NCBI RefSeq assembly: GCF_011682235.2
Contig: NZ_CP076718.1
Coordinates: 911,285 to 975,284 of the forward strand
Reading direction: 5' to 3'
Source of the DNA: Rhodocaloribacter litoris
Lineage (GTDB): Bacteria > Bacteroidota > Rhodothermia > Rhodothermales > ISCAR-4553
Length of the DNA stretch: 64,000 bases
A model generated the notes under the pieces. It made no database searches. It saw only the letters and a list, made by a program, of their open reading frames with translations, and was not told the origin of the DNA. Positions 46,081 through 62,194 of the stretch are shown here, in pieces; positions within the stretch are counted from its first letter, which is position 1; the number at the start of each line of letters is the position of its first letter. A program made the translations under genes and the position numbers.

Positions 46081-46989
46081 ATGACGACTCCCTGGCGCGG
46101 CGTCTTTCCCGCTGTCACCACCAAGTTTACGGAAGACGGTCGCCTGGACCCCGAGGCCCAGGTGCGCCACACCGAAGCCATGATCGCGGCCGGCGTGCAC
46201 GGCCTGATCGTGTGCGGCTCGCTGGGCGAGAGCAGCACCCTCTCGCCCGAGGACAAGCTGGAGGTGCTCCGCACGGTCCGCGAGGCGGCGGGCGGGCGCG
46301 TGCCGGTCCTCACCGGCATCGCCGAGCGCACCACCGCAGACGCCTGCCGCTTCGCCGAGCGGGCCGCGGCCGAAGGCGCCGACGGCTTCATGCTCCTGCC
46401 GCCCATGCTATACCGCTCCGACCGCCGCGAGACGCTCACCTTCCTCCGCACCGTCGCCGCGGCCACCGACCGGCCCATCATGCTCTACAACAACCCCGTC
46501 TCCTACGGGGTCGACGTCACGCCGGAGATGTTCGCGGAGCTGGCCGATGAGCCCGGGTTCGTCGCCATCAAGGAGTCGTCCGACGACGTGCGGCGCATCA
46601 CGGACATCATCAACCTGGTGGGCGACCGCTACCGGATCTTCTGCGGGGTGGACGACCTCGCGCTGGAGGCCCTCCTTCTGGGGGCCGAGGGCTGGGTGGC
46701 CGGGCTGGTCTGCGCCTTTCCCGAGGAGACGGTGGCCCTCTACGAGCTGGCCCGGGCGGGGCGGCTGGCGGAGGCCCGGGCCCTCTACCGCTGGTTCATG
46801 CCGCTGCTGCACCTGGACGTCTCGACGAAGCTGGTGCAGAACATCAAGCTGGCCGAGGCGATGGTGGGGCTGGGCACCGAACACGTCCGTCCCCCGCGCC
46901 TGCCGCTCGAAGGAGAGGAACGGGCGCGGATCCGGGAGATCATTGAGGCGGCGCTGGCGAAGCGTCCCTCCCTGCCGGTGACGCCATGA
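46081..46989 (+). CDS. DapA-family lyase/deaminase of the hydroxyproline pathway
   Basis: A 302-aa DHDPS/NAL-superfamily enzyme with Schiff-base Lys164 (VAIKESSDDV) and Tyr136 (MLYNNPVSYG); the N-terminal CGSLGESS motif binds the substrate carboxylate. In a complete trans-4-hydroxyproline operon this gene is 1-pyrroline-4-hydroxy-2-carboxylate deaminase, converting it to alpha-ketoglutarate semialdehyde. The neighbours (epimerase, flavin dehydrogenase, aldehyde dehydrogenase, GntR) support that role. It overlaps the GntR gene by ATGA. Confidence 0.86.
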   Translation: MTTPWRGVFPAVTTKFTEDGRLDPEAQVRHTEAMIAAGVHGLIVCGSLGESSTLSPEDKLEVLRTVREAAGGRVPVLTGIAERTTADACRFAERAAAEGADGFMLLPPMLYRSDRRETLTFLRTVAAATDRPIMLYNNPVSYGVDVTPEMFAELADEPGFVAIKESSDDVRRITDIINLVGDRYRIFCGVDDLALEALLLGAEGWVAGLVCAFPEETVALYELARAGRLAEARALYRWFMPLLHLDVSTKLVQNIKLAEAMVGLGTEHVRPPRLPLEGEERARIREIIEAALAKRPSLPVTP

Positions 46990-47651
46990 GCGAGACGCCT
47001 GCCGCCGCCACACCGACGCTGGCCGCCCGCGCCTACGACGTCGTCGAGGAGATGATCGTCACGCTGAAGCTGCCGCCCGGCCACGTCTTCTCCGAGGCCG
47101 AGCTGAGCCGGCGGATCGGCATCGGCCGCACGCCCCTGCGCGAGGCGCTCCAGCGGCTGGCCGCCGAGGGCCTCGTGGTGGCCCTCCCCCGCCGGGGCAT
47201 GATGGTGACCGAGATCAAGCTCCAGGACATCTTCGCCCTGCTGGAGACGCGCCGCGTCCTCGACCGGCTCGTGGCCGAGCGGGCCGCCCGCCGCGCCATC
47301 CCGGACCAGCGCGAGGCCCTCGCTGCCTGCGCCGGCCGCCTCCGCGACGCCGCCGCCCGCGACGACCTCGACGCCTTCATGCGGGCCGACCATGCCGGGG
47401 ACGACCTGCTGGCCGCCGCCGCCCGCAACCCGTTCGCCACGCAGGCGCTCGCCCCCCTCCACGCCCACAGCCGCCGGTTCTGGTACCAGTACCGCCACGA
47501 GGGCGACCTGCGCCGCTCGGCCGACCTCCACGCCCACCTGCTCGACGCCGTGGCCGCCGGCGACCCGGACGCCGCCGTCGCCGCCTCCGACGCCCTCATC
47601 GACTACCTCGACGCCTTCGCCCGAACCGTCACCTTCGGCGTGGCACCGTAA
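46986..47651 (+). CDS. GntR/FadR-family regulator of the hydroxyproline operon
   Basis: A 221-aa FadR-type regulator. The N-terminal winged-helix domain (LAARAYDVVEEMIVTLKLPPGHVFSEAELSRRIGIGRTPLREALQRLAAEGLVVALPRRGMMV) is followed by an all-helical FCD effector domain (from about residue 80; metal-binding region with ADHAGDD and HAHLLDA). It sits within the operon it most likely controls, starting inside the DapA-like gene stop (ATGA overlap). Ligand is probably a pathway intermediate. Confidence 0.9.
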   Translation: MSETPAAATPTLAARAYDVVEEMIVTLKLPPGHVFSEAELSRRIGIGRTPLREALQRLAAEGLVVALPRRGMMVTEIKLQDIFALLETRRVLDRLVAERAARRAIPDQREALAACAGRLRDAAARDDLDAFMRADHAGDDLLAAAARNPFATQALAPLHAHSRRFWYQYRHEGDLRRSADLHAHLLDAVAAGDPDAAVAASDALIDYLDAFARTVTFGVAP

Positions 47652-47719
47652 ACGGGTCCACGTTGAACGTTCACCGTTGACCCACCCGAACGTGCACCGC
47701 GCAACGTCCAACCTGTAAC
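47652..47719. repeat. Operon spacer repeat, copy 1
   Basis: The spacer between the GntR and aldehyde dehydrogenase genes is made of variants of CGTTGAACGTT, CCCGAACG and GTAACGTGAAACGC, the last running directly into the ATG. Related spacers lie at 49328-49512 and 50515-50607. No ribosome binding site is seen before the ATG. Confidence 0.65.
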
Positions 47720-49327
47720 GTGAAACGCATGACCCTCCACGGAAAGCATCTGATCGCCGGCACCCCTTCGGGGGCGGGGCCGGCCGTGATCCAGGCCGTC
47801 AACCCCGTCACCGGCGAGGCGCTGGCGCCGGCCTATCCCGAAGCCACCCCCGACGAGATCGACCGGGCGTTGGACGCCGCCACGGAAGCCTTCCACACGG
47901 GGCGCACACGGACGGCCGATGAACGGGCCGCGCTCCTCGAACGCATCGCCGACGAGATCGAGGCCCTCGGCGACGTGCTCATCGAGCGGGTGATGGCCGA
48001 GACGGGCCTGCCCGAGGGGCGCGTGCGCGGCGAGCGGGGCCGGACCACCGGCCAGCTCCGCCTCTTCGCCGGGGTCGTCCGCGACGGCTCGTGGGTTGGC
48101 GCCCGCATCGACACGGCCGACCCAGACCGCCGGCCCGTGCCGAAGCCGGACGTGCGGCGGATGCTCATCCCCCTCGGTCCCGTGGTCGTCTTCGGCGCCA
48201 GCAACTTCCCGCTGGCCTTCTCCGTGGCCGGCGGCGACACCGCCTCGGCGCTGGCAGCGGGCTGCCCGGTGGTGTGCAAGGCCCACCCGGCGCATCCCGG
48301 CACCTCGGAGCTGGTGGGCCGCGCCATCGACCGGGCCGTGGCGGCCACCGGCTTCCCGCCCGGCACCTTCTCCCTCCTCCATGGCGCCACCCCCGAGACG
48401 GGGCTGGCGCTGGTGCGGCACCCGCAGACGCGGGCCGTGGGCTTCACCGGCTCGCTCCGCGCCGGCCGCGCCCTCTTCGACGCCGCCGCTGCGCGTCCCG
48501 ACCCCATCCCGGTCTATGCCGAGATGGGGAGCGTCAACCCGGTCTTCCTCCTCCCCGGCGCCCTGAGCGAGCGGGGCGAGGCGCTGGCCGAAGGGCTCGC
48601 CGCCTCGGTGACCCTAGGCGCCGGGCAGTTCTGCACCAACCCCGGCCTCGTCTTCGCCCCGCGCGGCGACGCCCTCGACGCCTTCCTCGGCCACCTGGGC
48701 GCCGTGCTGGCCACCACCTCCGCCGGGACGATGCTCCACGCCGGCATCCGGGCCGCCTACGAGGCCGGCCTCGGCCGCTGGCAGGCCACCGAGGGCGTCC
48801 GCCCCGTCGCCGCCGGCCCGGCCGGCGACACCGCCACCCCCGCCCGGCCCGCTGTCTTCACCACCGACGCCGAGACCTTCGCCCGGACCCCCCACCTGCA
48901 CGAGGAGGTCTTCGGCCCGGCCACGCTGGTGGTACAGTGCGACGACCCCGCCACGTTCGAGCGCCTCGCCCGAAGGCTCGAAGGCAACCTGACGGCCTCG
49001 CTCCACGGCACCGGAGACGACCTCCGCGCCCACGCGGGCCTCGTCCGACTCCTCGAGGACCGCGTCGGGCGGCTCATCTTCAACGGCTTCCCCACGGGCG
49101 TGGAGGTGTGCCACGCCATGCACCACGGCGGCCCCTACCCCGCCACCACCGACGTGCGCTCCACCTCGGTCGGCACCGCCGCCATCTTCCGCTTCGCACG
49201 GCCTGTCTGCTACCAGAACTTCCCGCAAGAGGCTCTCCCCCCCGAACTTCGCGACGACAACCCGCACGGCCTCTGGCGCCTCGTCGACGGCACGTTCACG
49301 CGGGAGCCGTTGCACGTTGCACGTTGA
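47720..49327 (+). CDS. Alpha-ketoglutarate semialdehyde dehydrogenase
   Basis: A 535-aa NAD(P)-dependent aldehyde dehydrogenase with catalytic Cys305 (GAGQFCTNPG), general base Glu268 (YAEMGSVNP), Asn162 (FGASNFP) and Lys187 (VVCKAHP). This fits the KGSADH branch, which oxidises alpha-ketoglutarate semialdehyde to alpha-ketoglutarate as the last step of hydroxyproline breakdown. The last residues and the stop lie within the same CGTTGCACGTTGA-type repeat as the following spacer. Its ATG follows the spacer repeat without a visible Shine-Dalgarno site. Confidence 0.88.
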   Translation: MKRMTLHGKHLIAGTPSGAGPAVIQAVNPVTGEALAPAYPEATPDEIDRALDAATEAFHTGRTRTADERAALLERIADEIEALGDVLIERVMAETGLPEGRVRGERGRTTGQLRLFAGVVRDGSWVGARIDTADPDRRPVPKPDVRRMLIPLGPVVVFGASNFPLAFSVAGGDTASALAAGCPVVCKAHPAHPGTSELVGRAIDRAVAATGFPPGTFSLLHGATPETGLALVRHPQTRAVGFTGSLRAGRALFDAAAARPDPIPVYAEMGSVNPVFLLPGALSERGEALAEGLAASVTLGAGQFCTNPGLVFAPRGDALDAFLGHLGAVLATTSAGTMLHAGIRAAYEAGLGRWQATEGVRPVAAGPAGDTATPARPAVFTTDAETFARTPHLHEEVFGPATLVVQCDDPATFERLARRLEGNLTASLHGTGDDLRAHAGLVRLLEDRVGRLIFNGFPTGVEVCHAMHHGGPYPATTDVRSTSVGTAAIFRFARPVCYQNFPQEALPPELRDDNPHGLWRLVDGTFTREPLHVAR

Positions 49328-49362
49328 AACGTTGCACGTTGGGGTTCCCGAACGACGCATAC

Positions 49363-49509
49363 GTGTAACCCGAAACGCACAACGTGTAACCCGAAACGCA
49401 CAACGTGTAACCCGAAACGCACAACGTGTAACCCGAAACGCACAACGTGTAACCCGAAACGCACAACGTGTAACCCGAAACGCACAACGTGTAACCCGAA
49501 ACGCACGAC
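49363..49509. repeat. Tandem repeat of seven 21-bp units before the epimerase gene
   Basis: Seven copies, starting at 49363, 49384, 49405, 49426, 49447, 49468 and 49489, of a 21-bp unit containing GTGTAACCCGAAACGCAC. The first six are identical and the last changes only one base near its end. The array stops 3 bp before the epimerase ATG. It is likely a slippage-prone tandem array. The minus-strand frame across it (repeats of CVSGYTL) is an artefact. Confidence 0.95.
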
Positions 49510-49512
49510 CCC

Positions 49513-50514
49513 ATGTCCCGCCACACCTTCTTCTGCATCGACGCCCACACGTGCGGCAACCCGGTGCGGGTCGTCGCCGGGGGCGGGCCGCCGCTCGAAG
49601 GCGACACGATGCGTGCGCGCCGGCAGCACTTCCTGGCCGAGTACGACTGGATCCGCACCGGGCTGATGTTCGAGCCGCGCGGGCACGACATGATGTCCGG
49701 CGCGATCCTCTACCCGCCCACCCGCGACGACTGCGACGTGGCGATCCTGTTCATCGAGACGAGCGGCTGCCTGCCCATGTGCGGCCACGGCACCATCGGC
49801 ACGGTGACGGTGATGATCGAGCACGGGCTGGTGACCCCGCGCACCCCCGGCGTGGTGCGGCTGGACACCCCCGCCGGCCGCGTCGACGCCCACTACACGA
49901 TGGAGGGCACGCGCGTCCGGTCGGTGCGGCTGGTCAACGTGCCGGCCTTCCTCGCCGCCGAGGGGCTGACCGTCGAATGCCCCGACCTGGGCACGCTGAC
50001 CGTGGACGTGGCCTACGGGGGAAATTTCTACGCCATCGTCGACCCGCAGGAAAACTACCGCGACCTGGCCGACCACACCGCCGCCGACCTGATCCGGTGG
50101 AGCCCCGTGATCCGGGCCCGGCTGAACGAGGCGCACACGTTCGTCCACCCCGAGGATCCGACGATCCGGGGGCTGAGCCACGTCCTCTGGACCGGCGCAC
50201 CCACGAAGCAGGAGGCCCACGCCCGCAACGCCGTCTTCTACGGCGACAAGGCCATCGACCGCTCGCCGTGCGGCACGGGCACCTCGGCCCGCATGGCGCA
50301 GTGGGTCGCCCGGGGACGCCTCGACGTGGGCGACACGTTCGTACACGAGAGCATCATCGGGAGCCTCTTCCACGGGCGCGTGGAGGGACGCACCACCGTC
50401 GGCGGGCGTGAGGCCATCATCCCCAGCATCGCCGGCTGGGCCATCGTCACCGGGCTGAATACCATCTTCATCGACGACGAAGACCCGTACGCCCACGGGT
50501 TTCTGGTGGTGTGA
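49513..50514 (+). CDS. 4-hydroxyproline epimerase
   Basis: A 333-aa proline-racemase-family enzyme with both catalytic cysteines: Cys90 in PMCGHGTIG and Cys253 in SPCGTGTSA. Two cysteines indicate an epimerase or racemase rather than a trans-3-hydroxyproline dehydratase. It converts trans-4-hydroxy-L-proline to cis-4-hydroxy-D-proline, the first step of the pathway. Its ATG is 3 bp from the tandem array, with no Shine-Dalgarno site between. The following spacer has repeat copy 3. Confidence 0.92.
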   Translation: MSRHTFFCIDAHTCGNPVRVVAGGGPPLEGDTMRARRQHFLAEYDWIRTGLMFEPRGHDMMSGAILYPPTRDDCDVAILFIETSGCLPMCGHGTIGTVTVMIEHGLVTPRTPGVVRLDTPAGRVDAHYTMEGTRVRSVRLVNVPAFLAAEGLTVECPDLGTLTVDVAYGGNFYAIVDPQENYRDLADHTAADLIRWSPVIRARLNEAHTFVHPEDPTIRGLSHVLWTGAPTKQEAHARNAVFYGDKAIDRSPCGTGTSARMAQWVARGRLDVGDTFVHESIIGSLFHGRVEGRTTVGGREAIIPSIAGWAIVTGLNTIFIDDEDPYAHGFLVV

Positions 50515-50607
50515 CACGCCATCGTTGAACGTTGATCGTTGAACGTTTCACGTTGCCTGTAATCCGAACGTTCAACCTTGAACGTGAAACCCGAAACGCA
50601 AAACGCC
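50515..50607. repeat. Operon spacer repeat, copy 3
   Basis: The spacer holds CGTTGAACGTTG, AACGTTCAACC and GAACGTGAAACCCGAAACGC, running to a few bases from the ATG of the flavin dehydrogenase. It shares the ending CCCGAAACGC with the 21-bp array. Confidence 0.65.
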
Positions 50608-51834
50608 ATGCCGGATGTGATCGTCGTGGGAGCGGGGGCCGTGGGGTTGTGCACGGCGTACTTCCTCCGGGATGAAGGCTTCGACGTGGCCGTGGTGGCG
50701 CGGGAGCCGGTGGGCACGGGCGCTTCGGCGGGCAACGCGGGGATGATCGTGCCGAGCCACGTGGTGCCGCTGGCCGCGCCGGGCGTCGTGAAGCAGGGGC
50801 TCCGCTGGCTCCTCCGTCCGGACAGCCCCTTCTACCTCCGTCCCCGCACCGACCTCGACCTGGCGCACTGGCTGTGGACGTTTCGCCGGCACTGTACCGC
50901 AACCCATGTCACCCGAAGCGCCCCCCTGCTGCGCGACCTGAGCCTGGCTTCGGTCGAGCTCTTCGAAGCCCTGCAGACCGACCTGGGCGACATCGGCTAC
51001 GCACAGACGGGCCTGCTGATGCTTTTTCACACGGAGAAGGGGCGGCGGGCAAACCTGGAGGCGGCGGACCTGGCCGAGCGCTGCGGGCTGCGCGTCGAGC
51101 GGCTCGACGCCGGGGCCGTGCGTGAACGCGAGCCGGCCCTGCGCACGCCAGCCACGGGCGCGGTGCTTTACCACGACGATGGCCGTGTAGACCCCGACGC
51201 CTTCCTCCGCGCACTCGCCGCCGCCCTCGAAGCGCGGGGGGTGATTTTCCACACGGGACAGACGGTCACCGGGCTCCTGCGGGAGGGCGGCGGCGTGGCC
51301 GGCGTGCAGACCGATGCGGGCGCTCTCCGGGCGCCGCACGTGGTGCTGGCCGCCGGCGCGTGGTCCGGCCGGCTGGTACGGGACGCCGGCCTGCGCCTGC
51401 CGCTCCAGCCGGCCCTCGGCTACAGCCTCACCGTCCCCACACCGGAAAGCGGCCCCCGCCTCCCCATGATCCTCACCGAAGAGAAGCTCACCGTCACCCC
51501 GATGCCCGGACGGCTCCGCTTCGCCGGGACGCTGTCCCTGGTCGGCTTCGACGCCCGCATCGACCCGCGCCGGGTGGAGCCGCTGCGCCGCCTGGCCCGG
51601 ACCTACACGCCCGACACCGACGCGCCGGTCTGGGCGGGCTTCCGCCCCTGCTCGCCGGACGGCCTCCCTTACCTCGGCCCCGTCCCCGGCGTGACGGGCC
51701 TGTACGTCGCCACCGGCCACGGCATGATGGGCCTGACGCTCGCCCCCGTTACCGGACGGCTCATCGCGGCCCTGCTCGCGGGCACCCCGCCCCCGCTCGA
51801 CCTGGCCCCCTTCGCCCCCGGCCGCTTCGGCTGA
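50608..51834 (+). CDS. FAD-dependent D-hydroxyproline dehydrogenase
   Basis: A 408-aa DAO-family flavoenzyme. The N-terminal FAD motif is VIVVGAGAVGLCTAYFLRDEG, and a C-terminal GLYVATGHGMMGLTLAP closes the FAD site. In this operon it would oxidise cis-4-hydroxy-D-proline to 1-pyrroline-4-hydroxy-2-carboxylate. Start MPDVIVVG is used, because the earlier frame (from 50578) is in the repeat. Family resembles DadA; specificity is by context. Confidence 0.88.
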   Translation: MPDVIVVGAGAVGLCTAYFLRDEGFDVAVVAREPVGTGASAGNAGMIVPSHVVPLAAPGVVKQGLRWLLRPDSPFYLRPRTDLDLAHWLWTFRRHCTATHVTRSAPLLRDLSLASVELFEALQTDLGDIGYAQTGLLMLFHTEKGRRANLEAADLAERCGLRVERLDAGAVREREPALRTPATGAVLYHDDGRVDPDAFLRALAAALEARGVIFHTGQTVTGLLREGGGVAGVQTDAGALRAPHVVLAAGAWSGRLVRDAGLRLPLQPALGYSLTVPTPESGPRLPMILTEEKLTVTPMPGRLRFAGTLSLVGFDARIDPRRVEPLRRLARTYTPDTDAPVWAGFRPCSPDGLPYLGPVPGVTGLYVATGHGMMGLTLAPVTGRLIAALLAGTPPPLDLAPFAPGRFG

Positions 51835-52039: not shown

Positions 52040-54886
52040 ATGCAGCCTCCTCCGTCTCCAGACCGCTGGGAGCGTGCGCAACGGATCGTCCGGGAAGTTG
52101 CTTCTCTGAACGCCGCGGCCCGTGCGACAAGGCTTACGCAGGCTTGTGGGAATGACCCGGGCCTGCGCGGGCTGGTGGATTCGCTCCTGGATAGCCAGGC
52201 CGGCGCAGTCTCGGCACCGTCCTCTGCCGCATCGCCGGGGGATATGACCGGCCGGATGCTGAACCAGTATGAGGTGCAGGAGACGCTGGGCGCCGGTGGG
52301 ATGGGCACAGTCTACCGCGCGTTCGATCACACCCTCGAGCGAACTGTCGCCCTGAAGTTTCTCGCCCCCGGTCTGAGCCGGACTCCCACGGCCCGCGCCC
52401 GCTTCATGCAGGAAGCCCGTACGGCCGCCACGCTCGACCACCCCAACATCGGCACCATCCACGACATCGGAGACGTCGACGGGCTGGTCTTCATCGTGAT
52501 GGCGCTCTACGAAGGCGAGACGCTCCGCGACAGGATCGAACGCGGCCCGTTGCCCCCTTCGACCGCCCTTGACTATACAGGGCAGATCGCCCGGGGGCTG
52601 GCCCGGGCCCACGCACAGGGCATCATCCACCGGGACATCAAACCCGCCAACCTGATCGTCACCCCGCCCTCGCCCGCATACCCCTCCGGCCTGCTCAAGA
52701 TCGTGGATTTCGGCCTGGCCAAGACACGCGACCTGGTCCTGACCCAGACGGGGATGGCGCCGGGCACCGTCGTCTACATGAGCCCGGAGCAGGCACGGGG
52801 CGAGGCCGTCGACCACCGTACGGACATCTGGGCGCTCGGCGTGGTGCTCTACGAGATGCTCACGGGCCGGCGTCCCTTCGGCGGCGAGTACGAGATGGCC
52901 GTACTGTACACCATTCTGAACACCGACCCGGAGCCGGTCACCTCCTGCAACCCCGAGGTACCCGACGGCATGGCACACATCGTGTCGATGTGCCTGGAAA
53001 AGGACCCCGCGCATCGCTACCCCGGCATGGCCGACGTGCTGGCCGACCTGGACGTGCTGGCGTCGGATCAGGCAACCCCCGCGGCACGGTCCACCCCCCA
53101 TACCGGAAGGAAGGTGCCGGCTCCCGGACCCGTCGCCGGCCCCCCTCGCACGGCCTGGCTTCGCGAGCGCTTCGGGGCGCTCTGGATCGGGCTCACCGCC
53201 CTCGCCGCCGTGTCGCTCCTGTTTGCGCTGACGCCCCTGCGCGGCGTCCTCCCCGGCTTCGGCCTGCCGGAGCAGCAGAGCCTGGCCGTCCTCCCCTTCG
53301 ACAATGTCGGCGGCGACGTGGCCAACCGGGCCTTCATCGACGGGCTCGTCTACACGGTCACGAGCAAGCTGACCGAGATGGAGACGTTCCGGGAAGCCCT
53401 CTCGGTGGTGCCCGCACGGGACATGCTCCAGGCCGGACTCATCGGCACGCGGCAGGCAGCCGAGCGGTTCAACGTGAACCTCGTGGTGGCCGGCAGCGTC
53501 GAGCGCTCGGCGACCGATCTCCGGCTCTCCCTCCAGCTGATCGACCCCCGCCGGGAAAAGGTGCTGGCGAGCCGGCAGCTTCAGGCACCGCTGAGCGACC
53601 TGTCGTCCCTGCAGGCAGGTGTGGTTCACACCCTGGCCGAGTTGCTGGCGCTGGAACTCGACCCGGACGCCCGGGCCACGCTCACGGCCGGCGGCACCAC
53701 CGTCCCCCTCGCCTTCGAGTTCTACACCCGCGCTCTCGGCTACCTCCAGCGGTTCGAGGAAGAAACCCACATCGACCTCGCCGTCAACCTGTTCGAACTG
53801 GCCGTGCAGGAGGATCCCGGCTACGCCCTGGCCTACGCGGGGCTGGGAGAAGCCTACCTGCACAAGTACCAGGTCCACCGGGACCGTACGTGGATCGACG
53901 CCGCCGTTCGCAACGGTGAGCAGGCCGTGGCGCTCAACGACCGGCTGGCCCCGGTGCAGGTGACCCTCGGGATGATTTACGCCGAGACGGGCTTTCCGCA
54001 GAAGGCCGAGCGCGCGTACCGGCACGCCCTCACCCTCGATCCGCGTAACGCAGCGGCCCACTACCTCCTGGGCGACGTCTACGTCCAGCTCGGCCAGGAC
54101 GACCGGGCCGAGGCGAGCTACCTCCGGGCCATCGACCTGAAGCCCTCCTACTGGCTCTACCACAATGCCCTCGGGCAACTCTACAGCCGCCTCGGGCATC
54201 ACGAAGAGGCCATCCCCGCGTTCAAGCAGGTCATCGTCCTGCAGCCGGACAACCCGTGGGGCTACAACAACGTGGGCGTCCAGTACAACCGCATGAACCG
54301 GCTCGACGAGGCCATCACGTGGTATGAGCGGGCCACCCGCGCCAACCCCGACGCCCGGCGGGCCACCGCCTTCGCCTACATGAACCTGGCCGGGATCTAC
54401 TATGCTCGCGACCAGTTTGCCGAGGCCGCCCGCATGTATGAGCAGGCCGTACAGAACCAGCCGGCCAACCGCCTGGCCTGGATGGACCTGGGTGACGCCC
54501 GCTTCTGGGCCGGCGACGCCGGGGCGGCCGCGACGGCCTGGCGCGAGGCGGAACGCCTCGCACGCGAGCGCCTGGCCGTCAACACGCAGGACCTCGAGGC
54601 CCGCGCCCTGCTGGCAGCCCTCCTGGCCCGCCTGGGCGACAAAGCCCGGGCCCGCGCCCTCCTCCTCGACCTGCCTCCCCGCCCCGACCTCTCGCCCGAC
54701 GCCCTGATCGACCTGGCCAAGGCCTGGGAGATCCTGGGCGACCGCCCACGCGCCCTCCATTACATTCAGGCGGCCCTCGAACGCGGGCACGCCCCGGCCG
54801 TCCTCGCCTTCTCCACCTGGCTCGACGACCTCCGTACCGACCCGGCCTATATGCGCCTGCTCGACCAGCCGCCTCCTCTACACTGA
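52040..54886 (+). CDS. Ser/Thr protein kinase with TM, TolB-like domain and TPRs
   Basis: A 948-aa Hanks-type kinase. The kinase domain spans about 77-340: glycine loop LGAGGMGTVY, Lys106 (VALKF), catalytic HRDIKPANL (D199), DFGLAK (223-228) and SPEQARGE. A Pro-rich linker leads to a TM helix at about 380-400. The outside part begins with a FlgO/TolB-like domain (SLAVLPFDNVGGDVANRAFIDGLVYTVTSKL) and a series of TPR repeats (about 560-900). The start MQPPPSPDRW follows the helical N-terminal segment typical of this kinase type. First gene of a four-gene plus-strand cluster (34-bp gap to the next gene). Substrates unknown; the caspase proteins are candidates. Confidence 0.9.
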   Translation: MQPPPSPDRWERAQRIVREVASLNAAARATRLTQACGNDPGLRGLVDSLLDSQAGAVSAPSSAASPGDMTGRMLNQYEVQETLGAGGMGTVYRAFDHTLERTVALKFLAPGLSRTPTARARFMQEARTAATLDHPNIGTIHDIGDVDGLVFIVMALYEGETLRDRIERGPLPPSTALDYTGQIARGLARAHAQGIIHRDIKPANLIVTPPSPAYPSGLLKIVDFGLAKTRDLVLTQTGMAPGTVVYMSPEQARGEAVDHRTDIWALGVVLYEMLTGRRPFGGEYEMAVLYTILNTDPEPVTSCNPEVPDGMAHIVSMCLEKDPAHRYPGMADVLADLDVLASDQATPAARSTPHTGRKVPAPGPVAGPPRTAWLRERFGALWIGLTALAAVSLLFALTPLRGVLPGFGLPEQQSLAVLPFDNVGGDVANRAFIDGLVYTVTSKLTEMETFREALSVVPARDMLQAGLIGTRQAAERFNVNLVVAGSVERSATDLRLSLQLIDPRREKVLASRQLQAPLSDLSSLQAGVVHTLAELLALELDPDARATLTAGGTTVPLAFEFYTRALGYLQRFEEETHIDLAVNLFELAVQEDPGYALAYAGLGEAYLHKYQVHRDRTWIDAAVRNGEQAVALNDRLAPVQVTLGMIYAETGFPQKAERAYRHALTLDPRNAAAHYLLGDVYVQLGQDDRAEASYLRAIDLKPSYWLYHNALGQLYSRLGHHEEAIPAFKQVIVLQPDNPWGYNNVGVQYNRMNRLDEAITWYERATRANPDARRATAFAYMNLAGIYYARDQFAEAARMYEQAVQNQPANRLAWMDLGDARFWAGDAGAAATAWREAERLARERLAVNTQDLEARALLAALLARLGDKARARALLLDLPPRPDLSPDALIDLAKAWEILGDRPRALHYIQAALERGHAPAVLAFSTWLDDLRTDPAYMRLLDQPPPLH

Positions 54887-54920
54887 CGCCTACCCACAAA
54901 CCACCGCCCCGGCTCCTGCC

Positions 54921-55355
54921 ATGAAAAACCACGTCCAAGGCCCGCTCCTCGCCCTCCTGCTCTGCACCCTCATCCTGGGTACCGGCTGCCAGAATCGACA
55001 GGAAAGCACACCGGACACGTCTGACACTCCTGATCCAAGAGCTATGACCACGGCGCCCCGGACCCTTACCGTCACCATCTCGGCCGACGGCACCTTCTCC
55101 CCGGACCCGATCAGTCCCAACCCCGGCGACACGGTCGAGTTCATGGCCGATGGGACCGACGTGGTCCTGTGCGTGGAGCCGGCCTCCCTCTTCGGCGGCG
55201 AGCGCTATGAGATCCCGGCGGGGACGAGCCTGCCGCTGGAGGTGCAGCCCGACGCCATCAATATTTCGTTTGCCTACGTAGCCATCCTGGGCGACCTCTC
55301 GGCCGGCTGCGAGGGCGCTCGCGGGGGTGAAGGCGGCGGCACCACCGGCCCGTGA
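54921..55355 (+). CDS. Small lipoprotein with cupredoxin-like strand pattern
   Basis: A 144-aa lipoprotein (LILGTGC, Cys23). The mature part, TLTVTISADGTFSPDPISPNPGDTVEFMADGTDVVLCVEP, recalls a cupredoxin-type beta-sandwich but lacks a visible copper-ligand set. It has a Gly-rich tail. It lies between the kinase and metacaspase genes and is presumably cotranscribed. I would not claim copper binding. Confidence 0.6.
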   Translation: MKNHVQGPLLALLLCTLILGTGCQNRQESTPDTSDTPDPRAMTTAPRTLTVTISADGTFSPDPISPNPGDTVEFMADGTDVVLCVEPASLFGGERYEIPAGTSLPLEVQPDAINISFAYVAILGDLSAGCEGARGGEGGGTTGP

Positions 55356-55469
55356 CCCGCGCCCGTCCGGCCGACCCGTGCTGGCGTGCGGCTTCCTCCC
55401 CGTCGGGGGGCATCGTGTGCCACGGCCAGACCGCCGTCCTCTCTCTCTGATGCCAACCCCGACCGCCCC

Positions 55470-57551
55470 ATGTCTCCTCGTCCCGCCCTCTCGACCCTGC
55501 TCCTCGGGCTCCTCCTCGCCGGCTGCGTCCCGGGCGAGACGCCGTCCCCGCAAGCCGCCCCGACGACGGCCACCACCTTCGCTTCGGAACACCCGGAGAC
55601 ACCCCCGCTCCCCGATTCGACGCCGTCAACGCCTCTCCAGGCTCCGGCCGCCTGTGCGCCGGGCGGCAACGGCGCGAGGGCAGTCCGCGCCCCCGACGGC
55701 AGTCCCACCCGGCTGGCCCTGCTCGTGGGGATCGACGCCTACCCCAACCTGTCCCGCTTCTCCCAGTTGAAGGGAGCCGTCAACGACGTGGCACGGATGC
55801 AGGCGATGCTCACCACCCGGTTCGACTTTCCCCCGGAGAACGTGTGGACGCTCTGCGACGGGGACGCCACGCGCAAGGGCATCCTCGACGCCTTCGAGCA
55901 CCACCTGATTGCCCGGTCCCGCCCCGGCGACATCGTCGTCTTCCACTACAGCGGCCACGGGTCGATGCTTCCCGACGCCTCCGGCGACGAGCTCGACGGG
56001 CTCGACGAGACGCTCGTCCCCAGCGACAGCGACCGGCACGGCGCCCGCGACATCCGGGACGACGAGATCCAGGCGTTGCTGGGCCGGCTGCCCGAGGGGG
56101 TGCACCTGACCCTCATCTTCGACAGTTGCCACTCCGGCACCGCCACCCGCGACCTCGAAGGGGGACGCCCCCGCCGCCTCGACCGGGACAGCCTGCTGCA
56201 GGCCGCCGGCACGCGGAGCCTGGCCGGCGCCGACGCCGCCACCCTGGACGCTCCCGTCCGCGACTACGTGCTCATCTCCGGTGCCCGGGCCGACCAGCAG
56301 GCCAAGGAGCTGAAGGACCGGCCCAACGGGGCCCTCACCTACTACCTCACCGAGACGCTGAGCCGCGCCGACTCGGCCCTCACCTATACCGACCTGATGG
56401 ATGTGGTGCGGGGCCGGGTCAACGAGCAGTTCGCCAACCAGACGCCCCAGCTGGAGGGCACCGGGCGGGAACGCTATGCCTTCAGCGACGCCTCCAGCCT
56501 GGCCGAGCCGCATCTGCTGGTGAAGCCCCTCCCCGACGGCCGGGCCCGCCTGCAGGCCGGGGCCGTGCACGGCATGACCGCCGGCTCCCGGTTCGACGTC
56601 TACCCGCCCGGCACCAAGCGGTTTGCGCCCCCGGCCGAGCCCATCGCCTCGCTCCGGCTGACCCACGTCGACGCCTTCACCTCCGAGGCCGAGGTCCTCT
56701 CCGCCCCGCCGGACGGCCTGCCCGAGGCGGCGCGGGCCGTAGAACGGGAGCACCGCTACCCCGAGCTGCACATGCAGCTGCGCTACGAAGGGCTGGCGGC
56801 CTCGCCCACCCTGCAGGCCGTCAGGCAGCGGCTGGACGCCCTGCCCCACATCCAGGCCGTCGCCGAAGACGCCGACACCTACCACCTGCGCCTCTACGAA
56901 CACGAGGGCCGGATCCACGTCCGCCAGGATGAGGTGGTCTTCTCCACGCCCGTCCCCCTCGACGAAGCCGACGCCGTGGACCACGTCGTTCGCCAGGTCA
57001 GCCAGTGGGCACGGTGGTTCAACGTGCTGGCCCTCGAAGCCGCCGACGACCGCGCCCAGGTGGTGCTGCACCTGCGCTTCGACGACCCCAACCACGACGG
57101 CAGCCGCCCGTGGAACGACGTCTCGGAAGGCGCCACGATGTTCTATTCGTTCGAGAACCGGACCGAAAAGGACCTCTACATCACCGGCGTGGCCCTCTTT
57201 GCCACCGGCAAGATCCAGCCGTTCTACCCGTTCCCGCCCGGCGCCGGCGAGCGCCTCAAGGCCGGGCAGAAGAGCGACGAGTTCCGCATCCGCAACCTGA
57301 AGCTACCCGAGGGGGACGACCGCCCCTACACCCGCGACGTCCTGAAGGTGTTTGCCACCACCGCCCCCGTCGACCTCAGCAGCCTGATGCAGGAGGGAAT
57401 CCGGGGAGAGGATCCCACCGGCCGGCTGGCCGAAGATCCCCTCGGCCTCTTGCTGCTGCAGGCCACCGGCAACACCACCCGCGACTTCACCCCGGAGGAG
57501 GTGGGCGACTGGTTCACCGCCCAGACGGCCTACGTCGTCCGCCGCCGCTGA
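55470..57551 (+). CDS. Caspase-like (peptidase C14) lipoprotein
   Basis: A 693-aa lipoprotein (lipobox LLLAGC, Cys19). After a Pro/Thr-rich linker, the metacaspase domain spans about 80-360, with the dyad His163 (FHYSGHGS) and Cys220 (FDSCHSG), and the Asp-rich DELDGLDETLVPSDS typical of type I metacaspases. The C-terminal half contains a DUF4384-like region (MFYSFENRTEKDLYITGVALFATGKIQPFYP). Bacterial metacaspases cleave after Arg/Lys in most tested cases. Anchoring outside the inner membrane is unusual for a regulated death protease. Start at 55470 preferred over 55386. Confidence 0.9.
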   Translation: MSPRPALSTLLLGLLLAGCVPGETPSPQAAPTTATTFASEHPETPPLPDSTPSTPLQAPAACAPGGNGARAVRAPDGSPTRLALLVGIDAYPNLSRFSQLKGAVNDVARMQAMLTTRFDFPPENVWTLCDGDATRKGILDAFEHHLIARSRPGDIVVFHYSGHGSMLPDASGDELDGLDETLVPSDSDRHGARDIRDDEIQALLGRLPEGVHLTLIFDSCHSGTATRDLEGGRPRRLDRDSLLQAAGTRSLAGADAATLDAPVRDYVLISGARADQQAKELKDRPNGALTYYLTETLSRADSALTYTDLMDVVRGRVNEQFANQTPQLEGTGRERYAFSDASSLAEPHLLVKPLPDGRARLQAGAVHGMTAGSRFDVYPPGTKRFAPPAEPIASLRLTHVDAFTSEAEVLSAPPDGLPEAARAVEREHRYPELHMQLRYEGLAASPTLQAVRQRLDALPHIQAVAEDADTYHLRLYEHEGRIHVRQDEVVFSTPVPLDEADAVDHVVRQVSQWARWFNVLALEAADDRAQVVLHLRFDDPNHDGSRPWNDVSEGATMFYSFENRTEKDLYITGVALFATGKIQPFYPFPPGAGERLKAGQKSDEFRIRNLKLPEGDDRPYTRDVLKVFATTAPVDLSSLMQEGIRGEDPTGRLAEDPLGLLLLQATGNTTRDFTPEEVGDWFTAQTAYVVRRR

Positions 57552-57606
57552 CCCCCGTTCCCTCCCCCCTGTCCCTTTCCGGAACCAACCCCGCTGGAGG
57601 CCCGCC

Positions 57607-60249
57607 ATGTGCGCTCCCCGTGCCTGCCTCATCGTCGCCTGCCTGACCACGTTGCTGCTGGCGGCGCCTCCCGCCGACGCCCAGCGCTTCCGGACCGATA
57701 ACGCCGAGGTCACGCTCCACCTCACGAACGCCACCGGGGCCCCCGTCCAGGTCTACTGGCTCAACTTCTCCGGCGAGGAACAGGATTACGGCGTGCTGGA
57801 GCCGGACATGACGTGGCAACAGGGCACCTTTGCCACCCACGAATGGCGCTTCCGGCAGGAGGGCCGCCTGCTGATGACCTACGTGGCCACCGACGAGCCC
57901 CGGCAACACGTGACCGTCCGCACCGCACCCCTGCGGGAGCTGAAGCCGCCGGCCTTCGTGGCCCGTCCCCCCTACCCGTCCATCGAACGCGGCGATAACG
58001 AAGTCCGGCTCCCCTATCGCCCGCTGACCCTGTGGACCCGGCAGCCCGTCTACGACCTCGACCGCAACCCCGCCTTCTCCGTCACCTTCGACGCCCTCCT
58101 CGACGATCCCCGCCAGGAACTCATCATTGCCTTCTCCGAGAACCGTATCCCGTGGGGCATCCCCGGCGCCGACGCCCTCACCCTGCGGGCCTCCCCCTCC
58201 GACCAGGACTTCTGGTTCCGCACCAATTTCTACGAAGGCTGGCTGGACGCCTGGCTCAACTTCGAGAGCGGCGAGGAGGTGATGCGGGCCGGCCAGTGGC
58301 AACACTACGAGCTGATCCTGACCGGCACCACGTTCAAGGTGATGATCGACGGCCGGCAGGTGGCCGAGGCCAGCCTGCGCCGTGCCAACATCCCGCGCAG
58401 CGGCCACGTGGGCCTCGTCGTCTTCGGCCACGAAGCGCTGGGCGGCACGACGATCGCGTTCCGCAACGTCGCCGTGTCCGACCACTTCGGCGACGCCCTG
58501 GTGGAGACGGCCCCCGCGCCGGCCCTCGTGCGCGACGCCCCGGTTCCCCTGCCCCTCGACCGGCTCGAAGCCCTACCCGCCGTCGCCGGCATCGAGGCCA
58601 CGGCCGACGGCTTCAGCCTCCCCTACCGCCCCCTGTACCTCTGGACCGGGAGACCCGTGTATGACCTCGACGCGGCCGCCGCGTTCACGCTGGCCTTCGA
58701 GGCCCGGCTGGACGATCCCCGCCAGGAGCTCATCGTCGCCTTCTCCGAGAGCCGTCGGCCCTGGGGCGACCCCGAGGCCGATGCCCTCACCTTCCGCACC
58801 GCCCCCACCGACCAGGGCTTCTGGTTCCGCACCGGCTTCTATGCCGAGGGCCTCGACGCCTGGCTCGACTTCGAGGAAGGCGAGGAGATCGTCCGTGCCG
58901 GCCAGTGGCAGCACTACGAGGTGACCCTCACCCCCCGCGCCGTGGCCGTTTCCGTCGACGGGCGGCCGGTGGCGCAGGCCAGCCTGGAAGGCACCCCGCT
59001 CGCCCCGCGCGGATATGCCGGCTTCGTCGTCTACGGCAACGAGGCGCTGGACGGCACCCGCCTGGCCTTCCGCAACGTGCGCTACGTCACCGCCCGCGAA
59101 GCCGATCTGGCCGTTGTCAGCCCCGGCCCGCCCCTGCCCGAAGACGAACCCGAAGTGGACCCCGACGAGCCGCCCGAGGACCCGGCCCCCCTCGACCTGA
59201 CCGGCGCCGAGCCGCCCCAGCCCGTGGCCGTCACGTTCGTCAACACCGCCAGTGCCCCCCTCGACCTGTTCTGGGTGGATGAGGCCGGCGTGGAGCACGA
59301 GTATGGCGTCGTCCCGAAAGACTCGATCCGGGTGCAGGAGACCCTGCCCACCCACACCTGGCGGCTCAAGCTCCTCGACGAACTCATCGACACCTACGAA
59401 GCCGGTACCGGGGCTTCCCAGGTCCATCTGATCAAGCCGCCCCCGCCCGACCTCCTAGCCCGCGCCACCGCTACCCGCGACTTCGAGTCCGAGACGACCC
59501 GGGACGACGCCGTCGATCCCGCCGCCGTTGGCAAGTACTACGCCTTCGTCATCGGCGTGCAGGACTATACCTCCGACGCGATCAACGACCTCACCTACCC
59601 GCTGCAGGACGCGCAGAACCTCATCAACACCCTGACCGAACACTTTACCTTCGAGCAGGAGGACATCGTCTTCCTGAAGAACCCGAAGAAAGACGACATC
59701 ATGAACGAGCTGGACCGGCTGGCCCAGACGGTGACCGCCCGGGACAACCTCCTCATCTTCTACGCCGGGCACGGCACCTGGGATGACCGGATGGAGCAGG
59801 GCTTCTGGCTGCCGGCCGACGCCGAGAAGGAGCGGCGCTCCAAGTGGGTCTCGAACAACACCCTGCAGACCTACCTCAAGGGCATCCCTGCCCGGCACAC
59901 GCTGCTCATCTCCGACGCCTGCTTCAGCGGCGGCATCTTCCGCACGCGTGACGCCTTCAGCACCGCCGACCGGGCCATCCGCGAGCTCTACAAGATCCCC
60001 AGCCGCCAGGCCATGACCAGCGGCACGTTGACCGTGGTGCCCGACAAGAGCATCTTCGTGCACTACCTGCTCAAGACGCTGCGCGAGAGCGACGCCGCCT
60101 TCCTCACGGCCCGGGCCGTTTTCGACCGCCTGCAGGAGCCCGTCATCAGCAATGCGCCGCCGGAGTTGCAGGCCACCGTCCCGCAGTACGGGGTGGTGCA
60201 GGGGACCGGGCACGAAGGCGGGGAGTTCGTGTTCATCCGTCGCCAGTGA
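57607..60249 (+). CDS. VHL-like/jelly-roll/caspase multidomain secreted protein
   Basis: An 880-aa protein with a signal peptide (to about residue 26). Order of domains: VHL-beta-like 1 (about 33-95: VTLHLTNATGAPVQVYWLNF...YGVLEPDMTWQQGTFATHEWRF), two tandem concanavalin-like jelly rolls (about 131-292 and 334-494, sharing DDPRQELI.AFSE and AGQWQHYE), an acidic Pro-rich linker (505-535), VHL-beta-like 2 (539-600: VTFVNTASAPLDLFWVDEAGVEHEYGVV...THTWRL), and a caspase domain (643-875) with His722 (YAGHGTWDD) and Cys772 (SDACFSGG). The VHL calls rest on pattern (WLNF.G, L.PG..., THEW.F). I know no described protein with this order. Confidence 0.85.
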   Translation: MCAPRACLIVACLTTLLLAAPPADAQRFRTDNAEVTLHLTNATGAPVQVYWLNFSGEEQDYGVLEPDMTWQQGTFATHEWRFRQEGRLLMTYVATDEPRQHVTVRTAPLRELKPPAFVARPPYPSIERGDNEVRLPYRPLTLWTRQPVYDLDRNPAFSVTFDALLDDPRQELIIAFSENRIPWGIPGADALTLRASPSDQDFWFRTNFYEGWLDAWLNFESGEEVMRAGQWQHYELILTGTTFKVMIDGRQVAEASLRRANIPRSGHVGLVVFGHEALGGTTIAFRNVAVSDHFGDALVETAPAPALVRDAPVPLPLDRLEALPAVAGIEATADGFSLPYRPLYLWTGRPVYDLDAAAAFTLAFEARLDDPRQELIVAFSESRRPWGDPEADALTFRTAPTDQGFWFRTGFYAEGLDAWLDFEEGEEIVRAGQWQHYEVTLTPRAVAVSVDGRPVAQASLEGTPLAPRGYAGFVVYGNEALDGTRLAFRNVRYVTAREADLAVVSPGPPLPEDEPEVDPDEPPEDPAPLDLTGAEPPQPVAVTFVNTASAPLDLFWVDEAGVEHEYGVVPKDSIRVQETLPTHTWRLKLLDELIDTYEAGTGASQVHLIKPPPPDLLARATATRDFESETTRDDAVDPAAVGKYYAFVIGVQDYTSDAINDLTYPLQDAQNLINTLTEHFTFEQEDIVFLKNPKKDDIMNELDRLAQTVTARDNLLIFYAGHGTWDDRMEQGFWLPADAEKERRSKWVSNNTLQTYLKGIPARHTLLISDACFSGGIFRTRDAFSTADRAIRELYKIPSRQAMTSGTLTVVPDKSIFVHYLLKTLRESDAAFLTARAVFDRLQEPVISNAPPELQATVPQYGVVQGTGHEGGEFVFIRRQ

Positions 60250-60913: not shown

Positions 60914-62194
60914 CTAGTTCGTTGCCAGCAGGGCGAGGACGCGGCCGCCAAGCTCGGCCTTGCTGCTCGTCGCCAGGGCCGCGGCGGCTGTCGTCTCGGC
61001 ATTGCTGTAGAAGCTGGCATGTGCCGAGGCCACGACCTCGGCCGACGTCGCCGCCTCGACGGCGGCATCGAGCGTGCCCTTGAGCGTATTCAGGGAGGTT
61101 TTGACCGTCGTGATGAGTGTGGTATCGACGTTCAGCTCGGCGGCCAGCTCCGCCTCGACGGTCGTCCGGTAATCCGCCTCGGCATCGGCCAGTGCCTCCT
61201 CGCTGGCTGCGGCGCGGAGACGTGCCATCAACGTGTTCCGTGCTTCGACGAGCGCATTGACCCGTGCCGAAGCAGCCCCGGAAGCTTCGAATGCCGTCTC
61301 AACGGCGCGGGCACGGGCATAGGCCGCCAGCAGGGTGGCACGCTTGCGAAGCGCGAACCGCGCCCGGGCCGAGGTGCCGGTGTAAAACTTCAGCAGGGCC
61401 GCCTTGCCGGCCTGCCGGGCCTTGGCCTGTACCTCGGCCGAGGCGCCGGCGTCGACATAGGCCCGGGCGACGGCCTCCTCCAGCGCCTGCAGCGCCGAGG
61501 CTTCGGCCTGCGCGTTGGCGGCCGCATGCAGCGCCGCCTGCAGGTTCAGAAACGCCTCGCGCTTGCGCTCGCGGCTACGGCCCACCGTCTCGTCGTCGAC
61601 CTCGCCCTCATCCCGGGCATACTCTTCCTCGGCCTCCGTGCCGCGGGCCAGCGCCACGGCCACCTCGGCCGCCGTCGTAGTGCCGGCCTCGATCTCCGCG
61701 GCGACGTCCGCATCCACATGCACGGCCACCTCGGCCGCCGTCACCTCGTCTCCGGCGCGGGACCGGGCTTCCACATAGACGTCCGCCTCGGCCTTCGACT
61801 CGGTGGTCATCGGCATCGCCCGCACGGTGGCCTCTCCCCGGCGCTGTACGAGCACCTTCGTCGTGAAGGCTTCCTTGGTTGCCGTCAACACCATCACCTC
61901 GGCGTCGGTCTGGACGTCCAGCGCAAAGCGCCCGCCGGCGTCGGTGGTGGCCTGGCCGTCGAGGGCACGGGTCGAACCGTTGGCGGTCACCTCGGCCGCC
62001 GTCACCACGGCCCCCTCGACGTCCGCCATCGTCTTCCCGTACCCGGCCTCGTCGGTCACCCGGCCCTCCAGGCGAACCCGCTCGCCGTCATCCGGACCGG
62101 CCACCTCGTTGCTGTCGCATCCCCACAGCGCAAGCAGGCCCACCAGGACCAGCACCGGCATACTTCTTTTCCCAAGAGCGTTCAAACTTCTCAT
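60914..62194 (-). CDS. Alanine-rich helical lipoprotein
   Basis: A 426-aa lipoprotein (LLALWGC, Cys26). The N-terminal part (about 33-130) looks like a carboxypeptidase-regulatory-type beta domain (VRLEGRVTDEAGYGKTMADVEGAVVTAAEV). The rest is a long Ala/Glu-rich coiled region (many AEAxA repeats). No known function. Start taken at MRSLNALG (62194). A 17-bp palindrome lies about 105 bp upstream. Confidence 0.7.
   Translation of the reverse strand: MRSLNALGKRSMPVLVLVGLLALWGCDSNEVAGPDDGERVRLEGRVTDEAGYGKTMADVEGAVVTAAEVTANGSTRALDGQATTDAGGRFALDVQTDAEVMVLTATKEAFTTKVLVQRRGEATVRAMPMTTESKAEADVYVEARSRAGDEVTAAEVAVHVDADVAAEIEAGTTTAAEVAVALARGTEAEEEYARDEGEVDDETVGRSRERKREAFLNLQAALHAAANAQAEASALQALEEAVARAYVDAGASAEVQAKARQAGKAALLKFYTGTSARARFALRKRATLLAAYARARAVETAFEASGAASARVNALVEARNTLMARLRAAASEEALADAEADYRTTVEAELAAELNVDTTLITTVKTSLNTLKGTLDAAVEAATSAEVVASAHASFYSNAETTAAAALATSSKAELGGRVLALLATN

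Follow-up and report, generated by a model that had tools for sequence, protein, structure and literature searches.

Do four neighbouring genes for a membrane kinase, a small lipoprotein and two caspase-type proteins constitute a signalling system, or do they share a strand without sharing a function? The question is raised by a locus in a 64,000-nucleotide stretch of the Rhodocaloribacter litoris genome (the whole stretch is hereafter called the window), which a preliminary description, made from the sequence alone, had interpreted as a sensor-protease circuit at the cell envelope. Since related bacteria carry this set as well, we propose that these genes may encode an undescribed protease signalling unit of the cell surface.

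The four-gene locus

The locus consists of four plus-strand genes, P0001 to P0004, separated by intergenic gaps of 34, 114 and 55 bp (Table 1), and a recheck of the window bore out the positions, spacing and gene order reported previously. The scans with the Pkinase, Peptidase_C14 and VHL (PF01847) models, which the preliminary description had recommended, all gave matches above the curated Pfam cut-offs, and the kinase motifs and caspase dyads that it had named are in place. The export signals that it ascribed to the three non-kinase products were likewise recognised: P0002, P0003 and P0004 each begin with a recognisable signal peptide or lipobox, and export signals are kept in the orthologs of a related genus (see below). 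Two features are additional to that account, i.e. the presence of two LamG and two VHL copies in P0004 and the predicted cupredoxin fold of P0002.

No terminator-like sites were found on the plus strand between the four genes, which is compatible with an operon but does not prove it, and an Rfam scan of the window gave no match. In the whole genome (G000; 4.50 Mb, one contig), P0003 and P0004 are the only proteins matching Peptidase_C14, and there are eight Pkinase matches.

Table 1. Genes, domains and selected sites of the locus, in window coordinates.
Feature	Position	Strand	Basis
P0001, transmembrane Ser/Thr kinase (kinase - TM - FlgO/CadC-like region - TPRs)	52040..54886	+	Pfam Pkinase, TPR; CadC/FlgO-like region; TM
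P0001, kinase domain (K106, HRD197, DFG223)	52268..53020	+	Pfam Pkinase; motif residues
P0001, predicted TM helix	53174..53230	+	hydropathy peak 2.11
P0001, TPR region, predicted outside cytoplasm	53855..54559	+	Pfam TPR; predicted topology
P0002, small lipoprotein, cupredoxin-like, no copper ligands, family C2	54921..55355	+	AF2, Foldseek, sequence
P0002, Gly-rich tail following Arg134, predicted disordered; candidate site of caspase cleavage	55323..55352	+	pLDDT; cleavage inferred
P0003, metacaspase-type lipoprotein	55470..57551	+	Peptidase_C14; H163, C220, D106, D218
P0003, C-terminal DUF4384-like part, common to the large caspases of the wider module	56457..57548	+	full alignment; weak DUF4384 match in L103
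P0004, exported VHL-LamG-LamG-VHL-caspase protein	57607..60249	+	Pfam domains; repeat comparison
P0004, VHL copy 1 (W51, Y61, T74, H78, W80)	57688..57942	+	Pfam 31.1 bits; AF2 model; residues
P0004, LamG-type domain 1	57961..58479	+	Pfam; repeat comparison
P0004, LamG-type domain 2 (56% identity with domain 1; missing in G018 ortholog)	58570..59136	+	sequence comparison
P0004, VHL copy 2 (same pocket residues W556, Y566, T579, H583, W585)	59215..59451	+	sequence comparison
P0004, caspase domain (H722, C772)	59536..60237	+	Peptidase_C14

Conservation of the locus in the order Rhodothermales

P0004, P0003 and P0002 were used as queries in a conservation search of 114 genomes of the order. In G018, which belongs to another genus of the same family, the genes for the kinase, the small lipoprotein, the metacaspase and the VHL-caspase protein lie in the same order (contig of 41,831 bases), and their products share about 49-69% identity with those of the window. 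None of the genes flanking this locus has a counterpart beside the module of the window. The examination of synteny in Rhodothermales, another step advised in the preliminary description, thus speaks in favour of the set: the claim would have been refuted had the four genes not been neighbours in related genomes, and it withstood this test. The four-gene arrangement is shared by two genera whose flanking genes are unrelated, and exceeds chance.

A wider module was found in seven further genera of the order. It comprises the kinase and a protein of about 100 aa related to P0002 (family C2), usually near a caspase and often near a CHAT protein. The distribution of C2 is patchy (about 9 of the 114 genomes). 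Of the eight loci that show both genes, seven have C2 immediately downstream of the kinase in the same orientation, with gaps of about 33-115 bp; in G029 the two are convergent, with no caspase or CHAT gene nearby, and in G042 the contig begins inside C2. A caspase is encoded within about 10 kb of C2 in seven of the nine genomes (G000, G018, G025, G033, G042, G044 and G047), and a CHAT protein near C2 in five (G033, G042, G044, G047 and G100). The random-placement estimate for caspases near C2 is 1.6e-13, a value which ignores shared ancestry and is to be read only as "not chance". Beyond the order, a search of 394 genomes of the phylum gave, apart from G000, only weak C2 matches in two genomes, and a C2 scan of genome contigs retrieved only three MAGs, of the Rhodothermales type.

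The kinases of the module were also compared with each other. When seven genomes with many kinase matches each were searched with P0001, the best full-length match was the kinase beside C2 in all seven. Trees of the kinase domain and of the full-length kinases did not resolve all C2-linked kinases into one clade, and the full-length best-match pairing was used instead of their monophyly.

It might be argued that the four genes are unrelated neighbours sitting together by accident, as the gaps reach 114 bp and the kinase and C2 of G029 have no caspase or CHAT protein nearby. This explanation is already largely refuted by the G018 synteny with its unrelated flanks, the kinase pairing, the confinement of VHL to the module (see below) and the joint presence of export signals; we give it hardly any credence, and accidental adjacency was rejected on account of the synteny and the VHL confinement. 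The functional linkage of the genes, which had been deduced from their order and domains, is supported by the same synteny, pairing and confinement. The core of the module is most likely formed by a transmembrane kinase, a cupredoxin-fold partner and proteases of the caspase/CHAT family.

The members of the wider module differ from the products of the window in their leaders. In other genera C2 is about 100 aa long and has no leader, and the usual module caspase, of about 1165 aa, lacks a signal peptide and has a DUF7379 alpha/beta-hydrolase-like part at its C-terminus. Lipoprotein leaders are present on P0002 and its G018 ortholog, and lipoprotein or Sec-type leaders on P0003, P0004 and their G018 orthologs. 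Because the small protein and the caspase lack signal peptides in other genera, we interpret the exported form as a variant of the wider module. The envelope placement put forward originally can thus be kept for the window and G018, but it does not extend to the other genera. As export signals are found on P0002-P0004 in G000 and G018 and on none of their C2 and caspase relatives in the wider module, the three partners appear, judging by these predicted leaders, to have moved together, in one family, to the side of the TPR region of the kinase. Whether the four genes form one functional unit, an exported form of a conserved Rhodothermales module, is in our estimation an evenly balanced matter.

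Several other caspase loci were noted in the order. In L119 (1068-4093; G026:C535), a transmembrane kinase gene overlaps by 4 bp a gene for an exported protein with Sel1-like repeats and a caspase domain; this is an independent pair. Loci L111 and L112 (G086:C20 and G100:C29) have in common a block of seven conserved genes that surrounds another exported caspase and includes neither a kinase nor C2. Finally, caspase - nSTAND-like ATPase - WD40-like proteins are encoded beside the C2-linked caspase and CHAT genes in L104 (9654-13775) and L107 (2802-7727).

The kinase and its cupredoxin-fold partner

P0001 matches Pkinase with 157 bits (cut-off 31.7) over residues 77-327. A single hydrophobic helix near residues 379-397 separates the kinase domain from the FlgO/CadC-like-TPR part, whose TPRs occupy residues about 606-840, and the start position of the protein is backed by alignment with G018. 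Basic residues on the N-terminal side of the helix suggest that the N-terminus is inside. P0001 resembles receptor kinases of the PASTA/PknB type in its presumed cytoplasmic kinase domain, single TM helix and sensor region predicted to lie outside. However, PASTA repeats are absent from P0001, which has the FlgO/CadC-like and TPR region instead, and its score with the PASTA kinase equivalog, 305.9, is far below the cut-off of 450 and reflects a match over the kinase domain only. In the comparison with the PD-T4-6 defence kinase of PADLOC, many kinase models matched P0001 over this same domain only.

No Pfam family was found for P0002. Its AlphaFold2 model, built with eight homologs, is a confident beta sandwich (pLDDT 83.5), for which the best PDB matches given by Foldseek were cupredoxins, with a probability of about 1 but an E-value of 5e-3 and a TM-score of about 0.5. 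The Cupredoxin_1 profile weakly matches the G047 copy of C2 (E 0.011). P0002 shares the beta-sandwich fold with plastocyanin and pseudoazurin, but differs from these cupredoxins by its Gly-rich tail, its genetic partnership with a kinase and the lack of His ligands: mature P0002 contains no His, so the copper ligands (two His and a Cys) are missing, and its identification as a blue-copper protein was rejected.

The last ten residues of the P0002 model (88-97), which begin after Arg134, are predicted to be disordered (pLDDT below 50), and G000 and G018 differ little in this Gly-rich tail. In seven of eight C2 homologs a basic residue occurs after the last Cys region and before the tail, although not in a fixed frame; the C2 tail of L116 has His in its place. 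Since orthocaspases cleave after basic residues (PMC6426788), the Arg-Gly-Gly tail of P0002 is a plausible candidate site for a caspase.

Two caspase-type proteins with export signals

The Peptidase_C14 domain of P0003 scores 97.3 bits (cut-off 21.4) and has the H163/C220 dyad; D106 and D218 align with the specificity-pocket Asp residues, from which proteolysis after basic residues is predicted. From end to end, P0003 is collinear with the caspase-DUF4384-like part of the large module caspases, and it lacks their hydrolase part, so by alignment it is a shortened version of the signal-less caspase-DUF7379 proteins. The dyad, the pocket Asp residues and the DUF4384-like C-terminus are shared with orthocaspases and metacaspases of the Peptidase C14 family; unlike these, P0003 is a predicted lipoprotein, and its gene stands in an operon-like row together with those for another caspase and a transmembrane kinase.

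In P0004, the 3keto-disac_hyd and Laminin_G_3 matches both exceed the Pfam cut-offs, and the Peptidase_C14 domain, with the dyad H722/C772, scores 58.3 bits (cut-off 21.4). The G018 ortholog has only a VHL-LamG-caspase architecture, and it seems that P0004 gained a second LamG and a second VHL copy. Only caspase-domain matches were obtained in a plasmid search with P0004.

The VHL domain

Within the order, PF01847 was found in three of the 114 genomes (G000, G018 and G033), with scores of 31.1, 41.5 and 33.8 bits, respectively (cut-off 21), and in all three it lies within the module. In the 394-genome sample of the phylum, no genome other than G000 gave a VHL match. In G033 the domain sits after the TM helix of a CHAT protein, and therefore it is predicted to be outside the cytoplasm there too.

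When the PDB was searched with a profile built from the four VHL copies, human pVHL was the sole match (E about 1e-6, 58 residues aligned without gaps), and a template-free AF2 model (pLDDT 88.4) superimposes on human pVHL with a TM-score of 0.85 and an rmsd of 1.8 A. In the human protein, the hydroxyproline site is formed by W88, Y98, S111, H115 and W117, with S111 and H115 bonding the hydroxyl group (PMC9528729). All four bacterial copies, from three genera, have invariant W88, Y98, H115 and W117, and position 111 is T, T, T and S. The hypergeometric chance that those four residues would be invariant, given 13 invariant among 78 columns, is 5e-4, although the three aromatic residues among the five of the pocket may have been retained for structural reasons. 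In the predicted structure and sequence, the hydroxyproline-binding pocket is intact.

P0004 thus resembles the beta domain of animal pVHL in its predicted fold, in the ungapped alignment and in the pocket residues. It differs in lacking the alpha domain that binds Elongin C (the profile covers only the 58 residues of the beta part of pVHL), and in its surroundings: whereas pVHL acts via a ubiquitin ligase, the VHL domain of P0004 is predicted to be exported and lies beside LamG and caspase domains in the same polypeptide. A secreted VHL-domain protein has been reported in Litorilituus (PMC9002001). In the open literature, no description of a bacterial VHL-caspase was found.

Proposed mechanism and possible role in biological conflict

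We suggest that the four genes specify an envelope signalling device in which a ligand triggers proteolysis and the kinase acts as reporter, a proposal with roughly equal chances of being right and wrong; each of its steps, their order and the ligand are inferred. The VHL and LamG domains of P0004 would bind a ligand outside the cytoplasm, and because the VHL pocket is conserved, a hydroxyproline-containing polypeptide would be the first candidate. Binding would switch on the P0004 caspase and also the metacaspase lipoprotein P0003, either directly or as a second step. The proteases would then act on envelope targets, the disordered Arg-Gly-Gly tail of P0002 being an attractive substrate, and the processed or released P0002 might alter the TPR region of the kinase, which would report the event to the cytoplasm. 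The assumed topology of the kinase and the export of its partners are predictions from sequence features.

The module may instead belong to the biological-conflict systems (immunity or regulated cell death) of the caspase/CHAT type. In such a case, the kinase and C2 would respond to invasion or damage by releasing proteases that kill the cell or put it out of action, and the exported version would act on the envelope or on neighbouring cells. The wider module, with its caspase-DUF7379 and CHAT proteins and, in G042 and G044, caspase-nSTAND-like proteins, fits this picture, as conflict systems pair caspases with alpha/beta-hydrolases (PMC7159879). So does the patchy occurrence of C2, and extracellular metacaspases have been suggested to act fratricidally (PMC3501461). 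However, no MoxR/vWA, EACC1 or EAD component was present in the genes examined, and a look for defence genes near the homologs, as advised in the preliminary description, revealed none among the flanking genes examined. The matches to the defence library (PADLOC) are generic kinase or caspase matches, and a known defence system was set aside for that reason. Moreover, all three soluble partners are predicted to be exported in the window, which is a poor fit to ordinary abortive infection. A role in conflict seems to us possible but less likely than the signalling device.

Comparison with known caspase-centred systems

The proposed signalling device can be compared with two groups of systems in particular. 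The two-gene EACC1-caspase conflict system (Kaur et al. 2020, PMC7159879) has a related type of caspase, a membrane-linked partner and variable extra domains. The corresponding model, caspase_w_EACC1 (NF047832), gives 83.6 bits with P0004 and 57.9 bits with P0003, both below its cut-off of 140. No EACC1 gene (single TM helix, short extensions) was found beside the module, whose neighbours are the kinase, the C2 lipoprotein and a SWIM protein; a kinase and a cupredoxin-like partner are foreign to the EACC1 system, and in the window the proteases are predicted to be exported. The VMAP/iSTAND MoxR-vWA ternary systems (PMC7159879) combine a caspase with an alpha/beta-hydrolase, as does the caspase-DUF7379 fusion of the wider module. 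Here, however, the constant part is the kinase-C2 pair, and family scans of the neighbours P0005-P0010 and of the GntR-type regulator revealed no MoxR ATPase or vWA genes.

The preliminary description's statement that no system with this set had been described agrees with our search of the open literature, which covers a minority of subscription papers and found no description of the four genes together. The module is a real, conserved variant of caspase-centred bacterial systems, in which both the constant core and the reader domain are unusual. Most described systems of this kind consist of intracellular proteases and NTPase switches. Here it is a receptor-like kinase and its copper-less partner of cupredoxin fold that stay constant, and in one lineage all the protease partners appear to have left the cytoplasm jointly. 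Should the VHL pocket bind hydroxyproline, this would be, to our knowledge, the first known bacterial reader of prolyl hydroxylation, and the origin of the VHL domain would become directly testable.

Hydroxyproline genes in the window and in the genome

The four-gene module is preceded, at a distance of 205 bp and in the same orientation, by a set of genes (window 46081-51834) for a DapA-like protein, a GntR-type regulator, an aldehyde dehydrogenase, a 4-hydroxyproline epimerase (612 bits, against an equivalog cut-off of 376) and a D-amino-acid-oxidase-like protein, which is probably a hydroxyproline catabolic cluster. This proximity, together with the conserved VHL pocket, allows for another suggestion, namely that the exported VHL/LamG caspases serve in scavenging: they would bind and cut hydroxyproline-rich polymers, such as collagen-like proteins or plant and algal glycoproteins, and the adjoining pathway would use the product. 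However, no hydroxyproline pathway genes were found near the module in G018, G033 and the other loci examined, so the adjacency, and with it any link between the module and the catabolic genes, is treated as probably accidental. In addition, nutrient uptake needs neither a kinase nor C2, and caspase-family enzymes are specific processing proteases rather than bulk degraders. We regard scavenging as very improbable.

The genome also encodes a prolyl hydroxylase, whose closest PDB entry is 4iw3, the PPHD of P. putida (E 2e-52), an enzyme that hydroxylates EF-Tu (PMC6235002). The protein has no evident export signal and looks cytosolic, whereas the VHL reader is predicted to be exported, and G033, which has a VHL domain, gave no match to the prolyl-hydroxylase family tested. 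A reader-writer pair of VHL and prolyl hydroxylase is thus possible but not supported. A bolder version of the signalling device may nevertheless be formulated, although we consider it improbable: in an extracytoplasmic hydroxyproline-reading protease pathway, VHL domains whose hydroxyproline pocket is functional would steer the caspases to prolyl-hydroxylated proteins and report via the kinase. Such a pathway would be a parallel to, or an evolutionary source of, the prolyl-hydroxylase/VHL oxygen-sensing route of animals, the ubiquitin ligase being replaced by a caspase.

Two further features of the window were noted on either side of the module. Downstream, the minus strand encodes an Ala-rich lipoprotein (60914-62161) whose N-terminal part is carboxypeptidase-regulatory-like and which belongs to no clear family. 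Upstream, a perfect tandem array (49361-49506) with a 21-bp unit, 7.0 copies and a 100% match separates the gene for the aldehyde dehydrogenase from that for the 4-hydroxyproline epimerase.
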